IMG/VR virus record: IMGVR_UViG_3300037070_003131 | Location: 1-20,170 of that record | Length of the DNA stretch: 20,170 bases | Strand: one strand, 5' to 3' | Source: a virus | Shown here: positions 4,587-20,117 of the stretch, in pieces | How the letters are laid out: every line of letters begins with the position of its first letter | Position numbering within the stretch: position 1 is the first letter of the stretch | Program-made: the position numbers and the translations under genes | Notes under the pieces: model-generated | Seen by the model: the letters and a program-made list of their open reading frames with translations, nothing else | Database searches by the model: none | Told to the model about the DNA's origin: nothing

Positions 4587-4763
4587 TTAGTATTTATTAT
4601 CTCTCTGTAGGTTATTGGCCCAGATCATCAGGGATACCCAAGTTGGTATTTCTAAACCATATTTTACTGTCAATACAATAAATGCTCCAAGGTATAATGC
4701 TCCACCAATTAGGCAGAGCATTAATTTGGTTTCTTTACTAGGATCTTCTGGATTATTTTCCAT
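4587..4763 (-). CDS. small single-pass membrane protein overlapping thyA
   Basis: A 58-residue leftward frame. It begins MENNPEDPSKETK, has one hydrophobic helix (about residues 14-34, including LCLIGGALYLGAFIVLTV) and ends with a short polar tail, ANNLQRDNKY. Its ATG lies inside the last codons of thymidylate synthase (11-bp overlap), a spacing typical of translationally coupled phage genes, and its stop is 10 bp before the start of the cysteine-rich gene, so it fills the gap exactly. The start follows AATGAAAA, an A-rich leader. A rightward frame over the same bases (4615-4821) has no support. The function is unknown; one helix with an acidic N-terminus gives no specific prediction. Confidence 0.65.
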   Translation of the reverse strand: MENNPEDPSKETKLMLCLIGGALYLGAFIVLTVKYGLEIPTWVSLMIWANNLQRDNKY

Positions 4764-5742
4764 TTTTCATTCCAGTATTAAGGGTTGCTTTAATTGGTGC
4801 ATCATGAGTATAGTCGATTAATCTAAACATTTCAGGAGTTAATTGATTAAACAATTCATGTGTATACCAAACATCTCCTATTGTGTATTGTGTTATCAGA
4901 GTTTCAAATTCATTGCTGAAGTATAGTTCTGGTAATTTATGGGGAGTTCTTGTTAATTGTAGATCAGCAGCCTCTTGGTGATTATCATATAAGTGAATAT
5001 CCCCGAAAGAGTGAATGAATCTACCCGGGATCATACCAGTTAATTTAGCAACTATCTGCATAAGCAATGCGTAAGAAGCAATATTATAAGGTACCCCTAA
5101 GATGCTATCAGCACTTCTTTGATAAAGCTTACAATCAAGGAAATAACCATCCTCAATATCATGACTTACTTGTCGGCAATTGAATTGGAATAAAGCATGG
5201 CACCAGTATAAAGCTAAGTCCTGGTCATTAGCAACATCAATTGAAGATACCAGATGTCTTCTTCCATTAGGGTTTTTCTTGATGTTATGTATTACCCGAG
5301 TGATTTGATCTATACCAGCAGTTGTAGCAGTACCACCAAACCATCGCCAAGTTTTAGGATACTGATTACCAGTGTCACCATATCTATAATTGGTTCCATT
5401 ACGAGTATAACCCGCTATAACCCTTTCCATGAATTCTGCAAAGGTAGCAGTACTATCAGGGAAAAGCTTTTGGAAATAATTATAAGCATCCTCGTTCCAG
5501 ATATTTACTCCATTTTCAACCAAATACCTTATATTGGGGTTACCCCTAAGAAACCAAAGTAGTTCAACTACAATATTATGAAAGCTAACCTTCTTGGTTG
5601 TGATCATAGGGAAGCCTTCAGCAAGGTTAAATTCAATTTGAGGACCAAATAATGATTTAGTTCCGGGTAATCCTTCCCTTGCATCGGCTTTGTGATCGCC
5701 ATTATCCCTAATGTTTCTTAATAATTCTAAATACTGTTTCAT
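4753..5742 (-). CDS. thyA: thymidylate synthase (ThyA type)
   Basis: This enzyme converts dUMP to dTMP with methylenetetrahydrofolate as methyl donor and reductant, in the cytoplasm. The family signature is clear: VVELLWFLRGNPNI with catalytic Glu60, GRRHLVSSID at 160-169 with the two phosphate-binding arginines, the nucleophile Cys181 in YWCHALFQF, LYQRSADSILGVPYNIASYA at 206-225, and GDIHLYDNHQEA with the dUMP-binding His250 and Tyr252. Asn220 occupies the position that selects uracil, so dCMP hydroxymethylase is unlikely. At 329 residues it is longer than the E. coli enzyme (264), with extra sequence between about 86 and 145 and a short C-terminal tail. Oddly, Trp180 precedes the catalytic cysteine where proline is usual. 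It follows a terminator and overlaps the next small gene by 11 bp. The dUTPase gene upstream supplies its substrate. Confidence 0.95.
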   Translation of the reverse strand: MKQYLELLRNIRDNGDHKADAREGLPGTKSLFGPQIEFNLAEGFPMITTKKVSFHNIVVELLWFLRGNPNIRYLVENGVNIWNEDAYNYFQKLFPDSTATFAEFMERVIAGYTRNGTNYRYGDTGNQYPKTWRWFGGTATTAGIDQITRVIHNIKKNPNGRRHLVSSIDVANDQDLALYWCHALFQFNCRQVSHDIEDGYFLDCKLYQRSADSILGVPYNIASYALLMQIVAKLTGMIPGRFIHSFGDIHLYDNHQEAADLQLTRTPHKLPELYFSNEFETLITQYTIGDVWYTHELFNQLTPEMFRLIDYTHDAPIKATLNTGMKNGK

Positions 5743-5877
5743 GTTTATTAAATTAAAGTTGTTATTTACTAATAGTTTATTGTTTCTAAGGTAGTTATAG
5801 CTTATTTTTAGGTATTACAGTCTAAATATCATATAATTATATAATATATTTACTAGACGACTAAGGATAAGCACAAA

Positions 5878-5900
5878 TAAGGGAGTAATTTACTCCCTTA
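5878..5900 (-). terminator. leftward terminator between the dUTPase group and thyA
   Basis: Perfect 11-bp arms (TAAGGGAGTAA at 5878-5888 and TTACTCCCTTA at 5890-5900), realistically a 9-bp stem with a 5-nt loop. It lies 22 bp beyond the stop of the 91-residue gene. On the minus strand the arm is followed by TTTGTGC, a short T-rich tail. It probably separates transcription of 5923-6951 from thyA, although read-through is likely because no clear thyA promoter is seen in 5743-5877. Confidence 0.65.
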
Positions 5901-5922
5901 TAAATAATATATTGATTATTCT

Positions 5923-6198
5923 TTAAGTATTTTCTAATCCTAAATCTCTTCTAGCTTGATATACCGAGTAATTATGTTGTAGGCCAACTATACCTTCTCC
6001 CATTGAATGGGTATCTGCTATTTTTCGGATATAAACTTCTTTAGATTTAGCATCTATGAAATCTTGAGGATCAATTTGTATCTCTAATGAATTCCAGGGA
6101 CCTGTTCTGGAATATTGAACTGAGATAATAATGGTTTGAGAACCTTTTCCTGTGTCTTTATTAATATCCATTATTCTGGCGGTTAAAGTTCTCGGCAT
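5923..6198 (-). CDS. hypothetical protein, 91 residues
   Basis: I do not recognise this protein. It is soluble, with no cysteines, and has alternating hydrophobic residues in the N-terminal half (QTIIISVQYS, SLEIQID) suggesting beta strands, and a more helical end (YSVYQARRDLGLENT). The start at 6198 (MPRTLTARIMD) overlaps the end of the dUTPase gene by 38 bp and follows GAAAA, the A-rich context used elsewhere. An internal ATG nine codons later would shorten the overlap to 11 bp and cannot be excluded. It is third in the leftward operon, followed by a terminator. Its place suggests a role with the dUTPase or in early replication, but nothing in the sequence shows it. Confidence 0.7.
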   Translation of the reverse strand: MPRTLTARIMDINKDTGKGSQTIIISVQYSRTGPWNSLEIQIDPQDFIDAKSKEVYIRKIADTHSMGEGIVGLQHNYSVYQARRDLGLENT

Positions 6199-6625
6199 TT
6201 TTCGATTTATACATAGAATATAACTCCGAACCAGTCATACCTACCTTGATCATCTGATTCATAAAGAAATGGAATTGATCCACTATCTCCATTTTAAGTT
6301 CGATGGTATCTCTTTCGGTTAATTCTTTGATAGTCATGTTCTCCATGATACCTTTATTATCTTTCTTCCACCATTTCCAAGCAGCTGGACCAAAACCATC
6401 ATGAATACCCCCTAAGGCATCCATAGTTTCTGATAGTTCATCTTCTAAGGCATGTTTATTCCCTAATAAGAACCTTGCAACAGAGGCAATTGATTCATTA
6501 GGATTATCAAAATTAGGGGCTATCCTTAATTGTAAGGATTTTTGCATGTCAAGAATCTCATCGAATTCTTTAGCTGTTTCATAATTGATTACTAATTGTG
6601 AACAGGTGTTTTCTGTGTTTGCCAT
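6161..6625 (-). CDS. all-alpha dUTPase (dimeric dUTPase, MazG superfamily)
   Basis: This enzyme probably hydrolyses dUTP (and perhaps dUDP) to dUMP, keeping uracil out of phage DNA and making the substrate for thymidylate synthase. In its 154 residues the hallmarks of the dimeric dUTPase family appear in order: an acidic helix DELSE (62-66) for metal binding, the tryptophan-rich AAWKWWKKD (81-89), a second acidic helix KMEIVDQFHFF (111-121) with Glu113 and Asp116, and the C-terminal run KNAENFNRQNNGY (142-154), matching the family pattern KN..N..RQ..GY that binds the nucleotide. The start shares one base with the previous stop (TAATG), indicating coupling. It is second in the leftward operon. 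A dCTPase-like specificity within the same superfamily is the main alternative. Confidence 0.8.
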   Translation of the reverse strand: MANTENTCSQLVINYETAKEFDEILDMQKSLQLRIAPNFDNPNESIASVARFLLGNKHALEDELSETMDALGGIHDGFGPAAWKWWKKDNKGIMENMTIKELTERDTIELKMEIVDQFHFFMNQMIKVGMTGSELYSMYKSKNAENFNRQNNGY

Positions 6626-12991: not shown

Positions 12992-14092
12992 ATGAATACA
13001 GAAAAATTTGATAAATCACAGTACAAAGGACAAATCCAAGCTATCCACAATATAGCTGAGTCCTTAAGAAAAGATTCTAAGGAACCAGTAGATGTTTCTT
13101 TCGAAGATGTTTGCCAACAAAAATTCGACTTATCTTTCAATGACCTATTGGAGGATCTGGGAATTGATCCGGCAATCGATACAATCTCAGCAATCCAAAC
13201 AAGCGGAGATATGGATGTAAGATGGTTAATCCCTGAAATCATTCGTTCAGCAATTCGTTTGGGATTAAGAGAAGCTCCAATCTGGCCACAGATCACAGCA
13301 ATGGAAATTGAGACATCTCAAAAGAAATTGACAATGCCTTTTTTAAATATGTCTGATGCTGCTCCGAAAAGAGTAAATGAAGGCGAAACAATTAAAATGG
13401 GTTCTATCAGCTATGGTGAGAAATCTGTAGAGGTATTCAAAATGGGTAGAGGAATTAAAATACCTTACGAGGTAGTTCAATTCGTATCCATCAATGTTAT
13501 CTCTATCTTCTTACAGGACTTTGGAGTTAAGTTGGGACAAGCTTTAGACACATTGGCAATTGATGTATTGTTAAATGGAGAACAAGCAAATGGTTCGGCA
13601 GCTGCTCCAGTAATTGGGGTTACTACTCCAGGTACTAAGGTATACAAAGATTTCTTACGTCCTTGGATTAGAGGATCAAGAATGGGACGTAATTTCTCTA
13701 CTATCATTGGTAGTGAAGCTTCAGCCTTAGAGACTTTGGATTTACCAGAATTCAAAGACAAACATTCTGGAACTACTCAAGCTACATTGAACTTGAAAAC
13801 TCCAGTACCAAACTCAGCTGATTATTTCGTACATGGTAATGTACCAACCAATCAAGAGATCTTGGTGGATAAAAGATATGGCCTATTGAAATTGAACGTT
13901 ATTCCTCTTTTAATTGAAAGTGATAAAGTAGTGAGTAACCAGACAATAGAAACTTACGCTTCTATCACAACTGGATTCTGTAAAATGTTCTTGGATTCAA
14001 CTTTGATCCTTGATAAATCATTAGACTTCGCTACTAATGGATTCCCATCTTATATGGATGTGGATGCATTGGAGAATGTTCAAATTGACTAA
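12992..14092 (+). CDS. major capsid protein (HK97 fold)
   Basis: The shell subunit, 366 residues, in the expected place after protease/scaffold and decoration genes. The N-terminal ~90 residues are charged and helical (a possible delta domain removed by the protease). The body then shows features of HK97-fold shells: a long E-loop-like stretch (SQKKLTMPFLNMSDAAPKRV), a long spine helix (around 168-190, SINVISIFLQDFGVKLGQAL) followed by LAIDVLLNGEQANGS, and A-domain strands near the end. A strong terminator sits 24 bp after the stop, which fits a heavily expressed gene. The codons look typical of the module. I saw no Ig-like insertion. Confidence 0.85.
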   Translation: MNTEKFDKSQYKGQIQAIHNIAESLRKDSKEPVDVSFEDVCQQKFDLSFNDLLEDLGIDPAIDTISAIQTSGDMDVRWLIPEIIRSAIRLGLREAPIWPQITAMEIETSQKKLTMPFLNMSDAAPKRVNEGETIKMGSISYGEKSVEVFKMGRGIKIPYEVVQFVSINVISIFLQDFGVKLGQALDTLAIDVLLNGEQANGSAAAPVIGVTTPGTKVYKDFLRPWIRGSRMGRNFSTIIGSEASALETLDLPEFKDKHSGTTQATLNLKTPVPNSADYFVHGNVPTNQEILVDKRYGLLKLNVIPLLIESDKVVSNQTIETYASITTGFCKMFLDSTLILDKSLDFATNGFPSYMDVDALENVQID

Positions 14093-14116
14093 AAACAGAA
14101 TACTATACATTATAGC

Positions 14117-14144
14117 AAAAGCCTAAGTAACACCTTAGGCTTTT
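14117..14144 (+). terminator. terminator after the major capsid gene
   Basis: An 11-bp perfect stem (AAAAGCCTAAG at 14117-14127 and CTTAGGCTTTT at 14134-14144) with a 6-nt loop TAACAC, followed by CTTGTTTT. It lies inside the virion module, so partial termination here would give more capsid transcript than downstream neck and tail transcript. Confidence 0.85.
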
Positions 14145-14189
14145 CTTGTTTTATTACTATTAAAAATAAACAACTTAAATATAAATACA

Positions 14190-14576
14190 ATGGCAAAAGA
14201 AAAAGTTTATGTAAAGTTAGGACCTAAAGCTAATAGCTTTTCATGTCCTACTACAGGTTTCTCATTAGTGAAACAAGGAGAGGTTAAAGAGTTAATCTCT
14301 ACAGTGGCAAACTCTAAAAAAGTTGAACAAGCTTTAAGAGGAGGTCATATCGTTTATGCTAAAGATACAGAATTCGATGCTCAAGGTGAAGAAGCAAACA
14401 ATGCTCCAATCTTAGACAGACCTTTCTTAGAAAGCAAAACCAAAGCTGTCTTAGTTCCTATGGCAATTGATTTGTTAGAGGAAGATGATGAAGAGGATGT
14501 AGCTGATATTGAGGCAATGAAAAAACCAGAATTGGTTGATTTCATCCTAACTAAAAGCGAAAAAGAGCAAGAGTAA
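14190..14576 (+). CDS. hypothetical head protein with C-terminal HeH-like motif
   Basis: A 128-residue protein immediately after the capsid gene terminator. The N-terminal half is basic and beta-like (VYVKLGPKANSFSCPTTGF). A very acidic stretch (LLEEDDEEDVADIE, 95-108) leads to MKKPELVDFILTKSEKEQE, which resembles the short helix-extended-helix (HeH/SAP-like) tails seen in small proteins that lie after capsid genes in many phages. Such proteins often act at the head-tail interface or in packaging, but no function is established by this sequence. There is no membrane segment. The leader is A-rich without Shine-Dalgarno. Confidence 0.7.
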   Translation: MAKEKVYVKLGPKANSFSCPTTGFSLVKQGEVKELISTVANSKKVEQALRGGHIVYAKDTEFDAQGEEANNAPILDRPFLESKTKAVLVPMAIDLLEEDDEEDVADIEAMKKPELVDFILTKSEKEQE

Positions 14577-14607: not shown

Positions 14608-15483
14608 ATGCCAGCACCAATTTCCCAATTTGGATATCAAGTAAATGACTTAGAAATAACCTTTACTTCACTTTCTCTTAATGTAGATGTTGATACAACC
14701 TACTTATGGGATTTTGGTGATGGAAATACTTCAGCAGAAGAGAATCCTATACACACTTACCTAGCACCAGCTTTTTACAATGTTAAATTAACAGTAACAA
14801 ACCTTGATGCTAGTACTTCCGAAAGTATAGTCCTTATAAATATCTCGGGTACACAGAATCCCGAAATATTTAATGATATACCTTCAATGGTGGATTTATA
14901 TTCCCCAACTGAAATCATTGGTACAGTTAGAAATCACCAACAAAAAGAATTTCTTATAAGTAAATGGCAGGCATACCTACAACCATTAGTAGTTGATAAA
15001 ATTGTAACAATAGAGAATACTTATAATCCAAATGCTTACTCTCCTCTAGCAAATTCTCTTATAGCTAAATTGGTGGTAATAGAAATCATAATGGCTGAAG
15101 CATCTGCATTCTTATTAAAGACAGCAGTCGATGGAAATGGCGGAAGCTCTGCCTCATCAGGTTCAGGAAGTACAACAGTTAATGGTTCTATTAAATCCAT
15201 TGAAACTGGGCCTACAAAAGTTGAGAGATATGAGAACAAAGATGTATCATCAGCTTCAGAGAAATCAGCTAACTTAGCTAAGACATATCAAAACCTAATA
15301 ACACAGGGTGGAGTACTTGATCAATTAAAAGACAGTGCTTGCCAAGAATCTAAACGTATAGATGTATACTTACCTATGTGTGGACCATTACCAGCTTCTA
15401 ATAAGGGTTTTGGAGTAACATGTAAAAATGAGGGACAAGGATACAACGCTAATCCATTTGGTATAACTGATAGAATGATATAA
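14608..15483 (+). CDS. PKD-domain protein, probable head-tail connector
   Basis: A 291-residue protein with two parts. Residues about 5-80 form a PKD/Ig-like domain with the signature YLWDFGDGN (32-40), then NPIHTY and YNVKLTVTN. Residues 90-175 are helical (VDLYSPTEIIG, SPLANSLIAKLVVIEIIMAE), consistent with a gp6-like connector below the portal. A Gly/Ser-rich linker (about 176-190) leads to a conserved-looking SIKSIETGPTKVERYE segment and a C-terminal domain ending PFGITDRMI. PKD domains bind carbohydrate or protein surfaces and decorate many virions. The gene lies between a small post-capsid gene and a gene starting two bases after its stop, in the neck cluster. The PKD call is strong; the connector role is inference from order and helix content. 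Confidence 0.8.
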   Translation: MPAPISQFGYQVNDLEITFTSLSLNVDVDTTYLWDFGDGNTSAEENPIHTYLAPAFYNVKLTVTNLDASTSESIVLINISGTQNPEIFNDIPSMVDLYSPTEIIGTVRNHQQKEFLISKWQAYLQPLVVDKIVTIENTYNPNAYSPLANSLIAKLVVIEIIMAEASAFLLKTAVDGNGGSSASSGSGSTTVNGSIKSIETGPTKVERYENKDVSSASEKSANLAKTYQNLITQGGVLDQLKDSACQESKRIDVYLPMCGPLPASNKGFGVTCKNEGQGYNANPFGITDRMI

Positions 15484-17298: not shown

Positions 17299-18879
17299 AT
17301 GAACACACCACAAGTAAAATTTAAGGTTGAAGACCTTACCGCGTCAGTAGGTACTCCCATTGAAGGAGTAAGTTTTGTTTTGGGTAAGGCTATCAGAGGT
17401 AAAATAAATAACCCAGATACCATATTCAATTCATATCCAGCTTTCATAAAAGAACATGGTGGAATAGCTGATGGTAATTCAGCTGCCATGGTAAAACGAT
17501 TATTTGAAGGCGGAGGATCAATGAGATTCTGTAATCTATCACACTATTCAGATATTGATGATGCAGAAACATTAACAGCTGTAAAGGCTACTATCGATTC
17601 TGCATTCACAGATGAAGACTTAGTAGAGATATTCTCATTTGAACCAAAGAATGCTGGTGTAAGTTATAACAATCTACAAGTAGTATTAGCACCATCTACT
17701 AATGGTCTAGCAACACATTTCAATTTAATTATTGAAATAATAGGAGACTCTAACACAAGAGAAACTTATGCTAATTTATCTATTCCATTAGGACCAGAAG
17801 GAAGTACAGCAGATGCTACTAAAGGTTACTTAAGTGCCATCGAGAAAAGTTCTAGGTTAGTAAAACCCGTTTACTTAGATTTCATCACAGGTGGTATCCC
17901 TAATACTCCAGACACATTTGTTACACCAGAAGCTGGTACAAAAACATTTGCTGGGGGTACAGATGGTGGGGCATTGGTTAGTACAGATTTAATAGGAAGC
18001 TCAGTATCAGCAACAGGTTTAAATGCCTTTGATGAATATGAGGAAGCTTTACAAATCTTCTATCTATTAGATCCAGTAGCTGATACAGTACACATCGCAG
18101 CAGATGCATATGTAACTGGTCGAGATGATATGCAATATTGGTTATTCTTACCAGCAGATGCCCAAACAAAGGATGCTATGGTTATAGCAAGAACTGCATT
18201 AGGTATCAACAATAAGTTGACCAATATCTTTGCAAGCTATATTAAGGTTAGTGATCCTAGTTCTGGGGCTATTGTTGAACAACAAGCTTTAGCTGATATT
18301 GCTGGACTAGCAGCAAACAGTGATAAGAACTTCGGTACACATTTCTCATTCTCGGGAAACAAAAGGGGAGTATTAAGAAATGTATTGGGGGTAGTATTAA
18401 ACTTCGGTACTAATGGCAGAAGAAATGATTTGAATGAATTAGCAAACAGACAAATTAATGTTATCATTAACCGAGACAGCCAGATTAAACTTTGGAACAG
18501 TTACACTTCATTGATAGGCCAAAGCCAAGAACAATTCATTGGAGTAGTAAGAGGTACATTATCTATTAAAAAGGCATTAAGACCTTTATTAGAGGATTAC
18601 CTTGAAGAACCAAATGATATGAAAGCTTGGAAATTAATGTACTACCAAGTTAAACCTTACCTTGACCAATTGGTTGAGAAGAGAGCATTATTCTCCTACC
18701 GTTGGGAAGGTGACCAAGACGCTACTTCATTGGATAACCTTATCATCAATGATCCAGATGAAGTATCACAAGGTAAATACAAGGTAAGATTATTCCTTTC
18801 ATTCATAGTAAGTATGGTTGAAATTGAGGTAACATTAGTACTTACTTCTGGTAACATTACATTTGAAACAAACGCCTGA
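17299..18879 (+). CDS. contractile tail sheath protein
   Basis: Polymer of the contractile sheath around the tail tube; it shortens on infection to push the tube through the envelope. Its 526 residues show the expected sheath layout: an N-terminal strand region with a Gly-rich loop (GGSMRFCNLS), a variable middle (about 120-330), and a conserved C-terminal domain with ALADIAGLAANSD, NRDSQIKLWNSYT, FIGVVRGTLSIKKAL and a closing strand pair FLSFIVSMVEIEVTLVL. The gene ends with TGA at 18877-18879, the only TGA stop in the window, and the frame continues open to TAA at 18946-18948. An internal TATCTTTG (18225) is likely chance. The sheath-to-tube interval also holds two other genes. Confidence 0.9.
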   Translation: MNTPQVKFKVEDLTASVGTPIEGVSFVLGKAIRGKINNPDTIFNSYPAFIKEHGGIADGNSAAMVKRLFEGGGSMRFCNLSHYSDIDDAETLTAVKATIDSAFTDEDLVEIFSFEPKNAGVSYNNLQVVLAPSTNGLATHFNLIIEIIGDSNTRETYANLSIPLGPEGSTADATKGYLSAIEKSSRLVKPVYLDFITGGIPNTPDTFVTPEAGTKTFAGGTDGGALVSTDLIGSSVSATGLNAFDEYEEALQIFYLLDPVADTVHIAADAYVTGRDDMQYWLFLPADAQTKDAMVIARTALGINNKLTNIFASYIKVSDPSSGAIVEQQALADIAGLAANSDKNFGTHFSFSGNKRGVLRNVLGVVLNFGTNGRRNDLNELANRQINVIINRDSQIKLWNSYTSLIGQSQEQFIGVVRGTLSIKKALRPLLEDYLEEPNDMKAWKLMYYQVKPYLDQLVEKRALFSYRWEGDQDATSLDNLIINDPDEVSQGKYKVRLFLSFIVSMVEIEVTLVLTSGNITFETNA

Positions 18880-18948
18880 AGTTCAGCGGGCGGCGCAAAT
18901 ACACCAGGGGGAATATTTAATCTACCTTTTAATGATACATTCAACTAA
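18880..18948 (+). other. possible UGA read-through extension of the tail sheath
   Basis: After the sheath TGA the same frame continues for 22 sense codons, from SSAGGANTPGG to LPFNDTFN, and ends in TAA. The first part is much more G+C-rich than anything around it (AGTTCAGCGGGCGGCGCA) and encodes a Gly/Ser/Ala linker. The TAA lies 18 nt before the next ATG, in line with the 18-34 nt seen between other genes of this module, whereas the TGA would leave an unusual 87-nt gap. The base after TGA is A. Alternatives are a recent nonsense mutation, an assembly error or a non-coding spacer. Confidence 0.45.
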
Positions 18949-18966
18949 TCATTAAAATACTATACC

Positions 18967-19302
18967 ATGAATCTAAAGGATAAAATCTATACATTTATAA
19001 CATCGAAGACCCTGCCCAGTACGGTTTTAAACACGAAGGTAGGGCAGATAATGACTGAGGTACTAGATTCCAATAGAACTTATGGCCTTAGTCTACAAAT
19101 CATAGCTAAGGGATTTAACCAAGATGGGGTACCAAACGAAAGCTATGATATAGAACCCACAGACCTCGTAAGAGGTTGGGCTGATATCGATAATTACTGG
19201 TATTCAGCAATGTATATAGGGGGTGATCCAGATGACCTTGCCAACTATCGATATGGAGTAAAAACAAATTACTCGGAAGCCAGAGATGAAACAACATTTT
19301 AA
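18967..19302 (+). CDS. hypothetical tail-module protein, 111 residues
   Basis: A small soluble protein between sheath and holin-like genes that I do not recognise. The N-terminal half is mixed helix and strand (NLKDKIYTFITSKTLPS, TYGLSLQIIAKGFNQDG). The C-terminal half is acidic and aromatic (DLVRGWADIDNYWYSAMYIGG). It has no membrane helix and no cysteines. Its start follows an A-rich leader 18 nt after the TAA that closes the possible sheath extension. As it lies inside the tail operon it is probably a virion or tail-assembly component, but nothing more can be said. Confidence 0.7.
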   Translation: MNLKDKIYTFITSKTLPSTVLNTKVGQIMTEVLDSNRTYGLSLQIIAKGFNQDGVPNESYDIEPTDLVRGWADIDNYWYSAMYIGGDPDDLANYRYGVKTNYSEARDETTF

Positions 19303-19329
19303 TAATAACATTAATAACCTAAAAAGAAT

Positions 19330-19626
19330 ATGGGAAAATTAAGCAGTTTATTTAGCGTAAACTTAAGAGAAAGGATTAAGACCTTAACTATTACGATAGT
19401 AGGTACAATGGCAACGGCAATCTACCAAGTGGTAAACCAAGCTATCACAGATACAGGTAAATTCCCGGTAACAATCGAGGAATGGCAACAAATCCTATTA
19501 ATCGGGATATCAACTGGTATATCCGCTGGAGCACTATACTTCGGGGTAACATTTTCTTCTAATGGTAATACTCCGGGATTACTAGAGAAAACATTATCTA
19601 AGAAAAAAGAGGGTAACATAAACTAA
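19330..19626 (+). CDS. small two-helix membrane protein, holin-like
   Basis: A 98-residue protein with two predicted membrane helices, about residues 18-38 (TLTITIVGTMATAIYQVVNQ) and 54-74 (QILLIGISTGISAGALYFGV), joined by a polar loop, with a basic N-terminus and a lysine-rich C-terminal tail (LSKKKEGN). This is the usual layout of a class II holin, which forms lesions in the inner membrane at the end of infection. No endolysin gene is adjacent; the neighbours are tail sheath and tail tube genes. A membrane-bound tail-assembly or antiholin role cannot be excluded. The leader is A-rich without Shine-Dalgarno. The call rests on topology only. Confidence 0.7.
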   Translation: MGKLSSLFSVNLRERIKTLTITIVGTMATAIYQVVNQAITDTGKFPVTIEEWQQILLIGISTGISAGALYFGVTFSSNGNTPGLLEKTLSKKKEGNIN

Positions 19627-19655: not shown

Positions 19656-20117
19656 ATGGCAAATATAACAAACCCAAGGAAAGAATTTAATTTTTCTATC
19701 CAAGTAGTAGGGGCTCCAATAAATCCTTTCTTGGTTCAGGATGTTACTCTACCAGAAATATCCATTTCCCAAGCTAAGCATGGGGATACCAATTATGATG
19801 TTAAAACTGCTGGTCGAGTAGAGATCGGGGAATTAGAAATAGAAAAGATTATGAGTACCTCGGGGGCTGATAACTATTTCTTTACTTGGGCTTATTCTTG
19901 CCAGGATATCATCATTGGGGGAGGTAACGTACCTAACTTCTATAAGAGATCTATATTGGTTCAAGAGCTTGCTGAGGATGGTACTTCAGTAATCAACACT
20001 TGGGTATGCACAGGATGCTGGCCAATGAAAATCAATGGTCAAAAGCTAAGCAGAAAAGGGACAGAAAATTCCCTTGAAAAATTATCTATCTCAGTTGACC
20101 GAGTAGAGAAACTATAA
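19656..20117 (+). CDS. tail tube protein (T4 gp19-like)
   Basis: Subunit of the inner tail tube that the sheath surrounds. The 153 residues are almost entirely beta, as in gp19-like tubes: EFNFSIQVVGAPINPFLVQDVTLPEIS at the start (given here as EFNFSIQVVG...VQDVTLPEI), a loop with KTAGRVEIGELEIEK, DNYFFTWAYSC in the middle, ILVQELAEDG...VINTWVCTGCWP, and the closing strand LEKLSISVDRVEKL. Size and order fit the family, and the gene is followed by a strong terminator. It lies two genes after the sheath rather than directly next to it. The start follows an A-rich leader. Confidence 0.85.
   Translation: MANITNPRKEFNFSIQVVGAPINPFLVQDVTLPEISISQAKHGDTNYDVKTAGRVEIGELEIEKIMSTSGADNYFFTWAYSCQDIIIGGGNVPNFYKRSILVQELAEDGTSVINTWVCTGCWPMKINGQKLSRKGTENSLEKLSISVDRVEKL

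Follow-up and report, generated by a model that had tools for sequence, protein, structure and literature searches.

Sequence comparison and possible translation past the sheath stop

A contractile tail sheath gene that closes with UGA, and behind which the same frame stays open up to a second stop, raises the question of whether some of its translation continues past the stop. The gene lies in a 20,170-base virus record (the window) that also carries terminase, portal, protease, capsid and tube genes. The read-through that the initial annotation had put forward is supported at the level of sequence by the same stop, a coding signal in the same frame and the same motif in two diverged phages, and we consider UGA read-through of the sheath stop that is programmed, or at least selectively maintained, to be the probable explanation.

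The sheath gene and its UGA stop

The gene at 17299-18879 is, by profile and predicted fold, that of a contractile phage tail sheath. Its product matches PHROG 23 (tail sheath; E 2.6e-27), and its AlphaFold model (pLDDT 83) had among its best PDB matches in Foldseek the sheaths of T4, P1 and phi812 and other contractile sheaths (E down to 2.7e-27). The open reading frame closes with TGA at 18877-18879, and the features of this region are the following:

17299..18876, + strand: contractile tail sheath protein, main product of 526 aa (PHROG 23, AlphaFold, Foldseek)
18873..18892, + strand: possible RNA hairpin enclosing the UGA (CGCCUG/CGGGCG; GCCU/AGGC in the close relative L001), weak
18877..18879, + strand: putatively leaky UGA stop with the surroundings GCC-UGA-A; sole TGA stop counted in the window and in L001
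18880..18945, + strand: putative read-through extension of 22 codons, linker SSAGGANTPGG then IFNLPFNDTFN; kept in L001, with frame-0 codon usage and conservative changes
18946..18948, + strand: TAA closing the extension; TTC-AAC-TAA stands at the aligned place in L001

As first described, the sheath gene is the only gene in the window that ends in TGA, the other 20 genes counted ending in TAA or TAG, and the frame past the TGA is open for 22 codons (SSAGGANTPGGIFNLPFNDTFN) up to a TAA that lies 18 nt from the ATG at 18967. The GC richness reported after the TGA was also recovered (58% in the first 36 nt vs 34% in the record), a level that 0.16% of windows of this length reach. The length of the open run was not in itself accepted as evidence, given that 66 of the 331 stops in the phage family (about 20%) have at least 20 open codons behind them; the case therefore rests on conservation, frame and codon usage. 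In the AlphaFold model, the residues of the extension have low pLDDT (31-37) and no predicted fold.

Conservation of the stop region in a diverged phage

Scans of IMG/VR with the sheath, the sheath C-terminus, the tail tube, and stop-region and sheath-peptide DNA patterns gave a single close relative, L001 (IMGVR_UViG_3300027805_000140), from another metagenome; scans of bacterial genomes gave no close relative, and phage records yielded distant sheaths only. Two pattern matches (L043 and L044) were rejected, both lying inside unrelated genes. The extensions were thus compared in two genomes, as a single pairwise comparison. The sheath of L001 is 62% identical to that of the window, with 50% identity at third codon positions and 43% at fourfold sites (near saturation).

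The L001 sheath stop is GCC-TGA-A, as in the window (GCCTGAA is identical in both), and among the genes counted in L001 a TGA stop occurs once, at the sheath end. The L001 frame past the TGA has 20 open codons and ends in TTC-AAC-TAA. The peptide encoded there (TEADNANVGVFGPAFGSAFN) and that of the window both consist of a linker of small residues, followed by F(N/G)xxF(N/G)xxFN directly before the stop. The pattern F[NGSD]xxF[NGSD]xxF, which was picked after the extensions had been seen, has five matches in the translations of all loci (810,172 residues), the two extensions among them. Because a phage from another metagenome, with fourfold sites near saturation, keeps GCC-TGA-A, a near-equal length and the C-terminal motif, the alternatives of mutation or assembly error raised in the initial annotation are very unlikely.

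At the DNA level, the stop regions of the two phages have in common the words GCCTGAA, GCGG....CGCAAAT and ATTCAACTAA. The inverted repeat CTGAA-G-TTCAG described around the TGA is present in the window (CTGAAGTTCAG) but is not kept in L001 (CTGAACAGAGG), and was set aside. Both genomes also have minus-strand ORFs across from the sheath end, where they run antisense to coding sequence that is conserved.

The coding frame of the extension

Peptide shuffles raised the scores of frame 0 and frame +1 alike, since the two extensions are similar as DNA; as the shuffles do not separate these frames, codon-usage and substitution tests were used. With substitutions placed at random on one window/L001 DNA alignment, frame 0 gave p = 0.003, frame +1 p = 0.15 and frame -1 p = 0.36, and alternative gap placements gave p = 0.007-0.04 in frame 0 and p = 0.08-0.27 in frame +1. 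On these alignments, the substitutions in the extension are conservative in frame 0 only. In both phages, the codon-usage score per codon of frame 0 (+0.11 and +0.15) lies inside the spread of scores from true gene windows, whereas almost every window in a true frame scores higher than frames +1 and -1 (about -0.3). Exchanging the codon tables of the two phages leaves this outcome unchanged. Because the substitution and codon-usage tests single it out, the coding frame of the extension is, by these measures, frame 0, in keeping with the frame originally proposed, and a same-frame coding extension behind the stop is kept in the one relative with a frame-specific signal.

Distribution of the extension and the downstream module

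It had been suggested that homologues might have a sense codon in place of the stop. This was not borne out: L001 has TGA as well, and about 30 more distant sheaths end where the window has its TGA, in TAA (one in TAG), and lack an extension. This stop position is the normal sheath end in all relatives, and because the distant sheaths stop there without an extension, the latter is, on the distribution seen here, a lineage-specific gain, that is, a clade-specific addition. In one contig (L002, 3906-7399), two different sheath-like genes occur in tandem.

The genes that follow the sheath gene in the window are:

18967..19302, + strand: 111-aa protein that shares its N-terminal domain with the L001 fibre-like protein (31% identity over 94 aa, E 4e-13); candidate partner
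19330..19626, + strand: small hydrophobic protein (98 aa) belonging to the inserted module; its position is common with that of a 76-aa L001 protein
19656..20117, + strand: tail tube protein (Pfam Phage_T4_gp19, E 1.3e-14; 79% identical to L001)

The tail tube gene stands directly after the sheath gene in most of the distant loci, and among the loci tested, only the two extension-bearing genomes have a fibre-type gene and a small gene between them (18967-19626 in the window, 6680-8005 in L001). The fibre-like protein that follows the sheath in L001 has 358 aa, includes a collagen-like repeat and has matches among tail fibre families; the fibre body is found in L001, and only the N-terminal domain in the window. 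The 98-aa protein of the window showed no sequence match to the 76-aa protein of L001. The extension and the inserted module occur together, but as there was probably one origin, this joint occurrence is a hint and not proof.

Read-through and other explanations of the extension

Separate initiation of the extension is not plausible, since frame 0 of the window extension contains no ATG, GTG or TTG. The earlier statement that UGA is not generally recoded was confirmed by the 15 + strand genes counted, which contain 49 TGG and no in-frame TGA. A tRNA gene was found in neither the window nor L001, and Rfam gave no match. With no start in the extension, no reassignment of TGA and no tRNA gene, UGA read-through would be the simplest route to the extension. 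The stop context, UGA-A after GCC, is kept in both phages, and no strong conserved RNA structure was found downstream of the stop in the two. The possible hairpin around the UGA falls inside the ribosome footprint and may have arisen by chance.

An untranslated RNA or DNA element past an ordinary stop, such as part of a signal for the processing of the next gene or for its translational coupling, would fit the conserved DNA words, the high GC after the stop, the small hairpin around the stop in both phages and the DNA-level conservation between window and L001 of some other intergenic gaps. We nevertheless regard it as unlikely in view of the frame-0 codon usage, the frame-specific conservative changes, the retention of both the F-motif and the same final stop, and the lack of an Rfam match. 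A programmed +1 frameshift at GCC-UGA would place the extension in frame +1 (EVQRAAQ...HSTNH in the window, EQRRTTQ...HSTK in L001). In both phages the +1 frame stays open up to almost the same point, the peptide shuffles raise the +1 score as well, and the tsh genes of Listeria phages PSA, A118 and A500 undergo a +1 shift at CCC_UGA, at the end of the major tail protein (PMC5009743). However, neither codon usage nor the substitution test finds a coding signal in +1, where the substitution test is not significant and the codon-usage score is exceeded by about 99% or more of the true gene windows in both phages. Full re-pairing on CCU is moreover impossible for a tRNA-Ala on GCC, and we judge a frameshift to be quite improbable.

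The extension could also be a relic, having arrived with the downstream module or having once been part of the sheath, and be untranslated now or leak without function. Its restriction to the clade with the inserted module would agree with this, as would the end of every other sheath at the TGA position; the stop, length, motif and frame are nonetheless kept despite a fourfold-site identity near saturation, which makes a relic very improbable. That every sheath subunit is long because UGA is a sense codon here, through code reassignment, selenocysteine or a suppressor tRNA, is scarcely credible. A special codon would be in line with one TGA per genome, but no other in-frame TGA occurs in the genes counted, the tRNA and Rfam searches named above were negative, and the normal sheath end of all relatives is at this stop.

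Possible role of a longer sheath and comparison with known systems

Under UGA read-through, most ribosomes would stop at GCC-UGA-A and yield the normal 526-aa sheath, and a minority would read the UGA with a near-cognate aminoacyl-tRNA, probably that for Trp, thereby adding 22 residues and one for the stop; we infer the occurrence and rate of read-through, the inserted amino acid and the role alike. The added peptide would be a flexible Gly/Ala/Ser/Asn linker with an aromatic C-terminal motif, F(N/G)xxF(N/G)xxFN. The sheaths of T4, P1, Milano and other phages have the same fold as that of the window, and in the Milano sheath N- and C-terminal arms are donated to neighbours, with the C-terminal arm of the first ring going to the baseplate (PMC10811340). 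As the C-terminal arm is a strand passed to a neighbour, the extra peptide would extend past it in a small proportion of subunits, where it could label one sheath end or hold an accessory protein in place. Our guess is that it serves to dock an accessory tail protein, for which the fibre-type product of the neighbouring gene is the likeliest candidate, or to make a special sheath end at the baseplate or neck. The more specific proposal of a two-length sheath, in which UGA read-through sets the number of aromatic docking tags that recruit the fibre-type protein encoded next door, is tentative and rather doubtful; if true, a translation error would set the copy number of tail decorations. Hair-like whiskers are known along the contractile tail of phage CBB, for which the gene is not known (PMC5259590).

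In phage Q-beta, UGA read-through gives the minor coat protein A1, of which few copies, with their C-terminal extension displayed, are present in the virion (PMC8067240, PMC8310308). The likeness lies in a major structural protein that ends in a single leaky UGA, the leakiness here being proposed from sequence; however, Q-beta is an ssRNA phage with a large folded extension domain, whereas the putative extension described here has 22 residues and would belong to the contractile sheath of a tailed dsDNA phage. Phage SPP1 makes its tail tube protein in two lengths at a constant ratio (gp17.1 and gp17.1*), and the extension is presumed to lie exposed and to attach to cell surfaces (PMC6316719). 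A polymeric tail protein of two lengths is proposed here as well, but in SPP1 the tube protein gains 87 aa that include an FN3 motif, by a +1 frameshift, unlike the same-frame UGA and short tail on the sheath. The Listeria phage tsh genes resemble the proposed case in recoding at the UGA that closes a major tail protein; there the frame changes, whereas in the present case frame 0 carries the coding signal.

As SPP1 gp17.1* and Q-beta A1 illustrate, structural proteins of two lengths can bear extensions that are exposed. Phage capsids and tail tubes both provide cases of such proteins, and the dsDNA phages compared here use frameshifting. No two-length sheath made by read-through was found in the literature searched; the proposed read-through is of a known kind (Q-beta A1, SPP1 gp17.1*) and in a contractile sheath is apparently new. 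If true, same-frame read-through in a contractile sheath would be a new place and mode for two-length proteins, would hint at how sparse decoration or a marked end can arise on a helical tube whose subunits are identical, and would provide a natural display site on contractile injection machines.

Other features of the window

After the capsid gene, the DNA at 14092-14190 is well conserved relative to L001 (z 7.2), and the open frame past the stop is not kept; a regulatory element is possible at this position. A 291-aa protein with a PKD domain is encoded among the head-tail genes (14608-15483), and a thymidylate synthase gene and a dUTPase-like gene adjoin the terminase module on the minus strand (4753-6625). 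Positions 1480-2640 form an island of 14-21% GC in the 34% GC record, which includes a 169-aa ORF (2115-2624) of no clear family and looks like a recent insertion.
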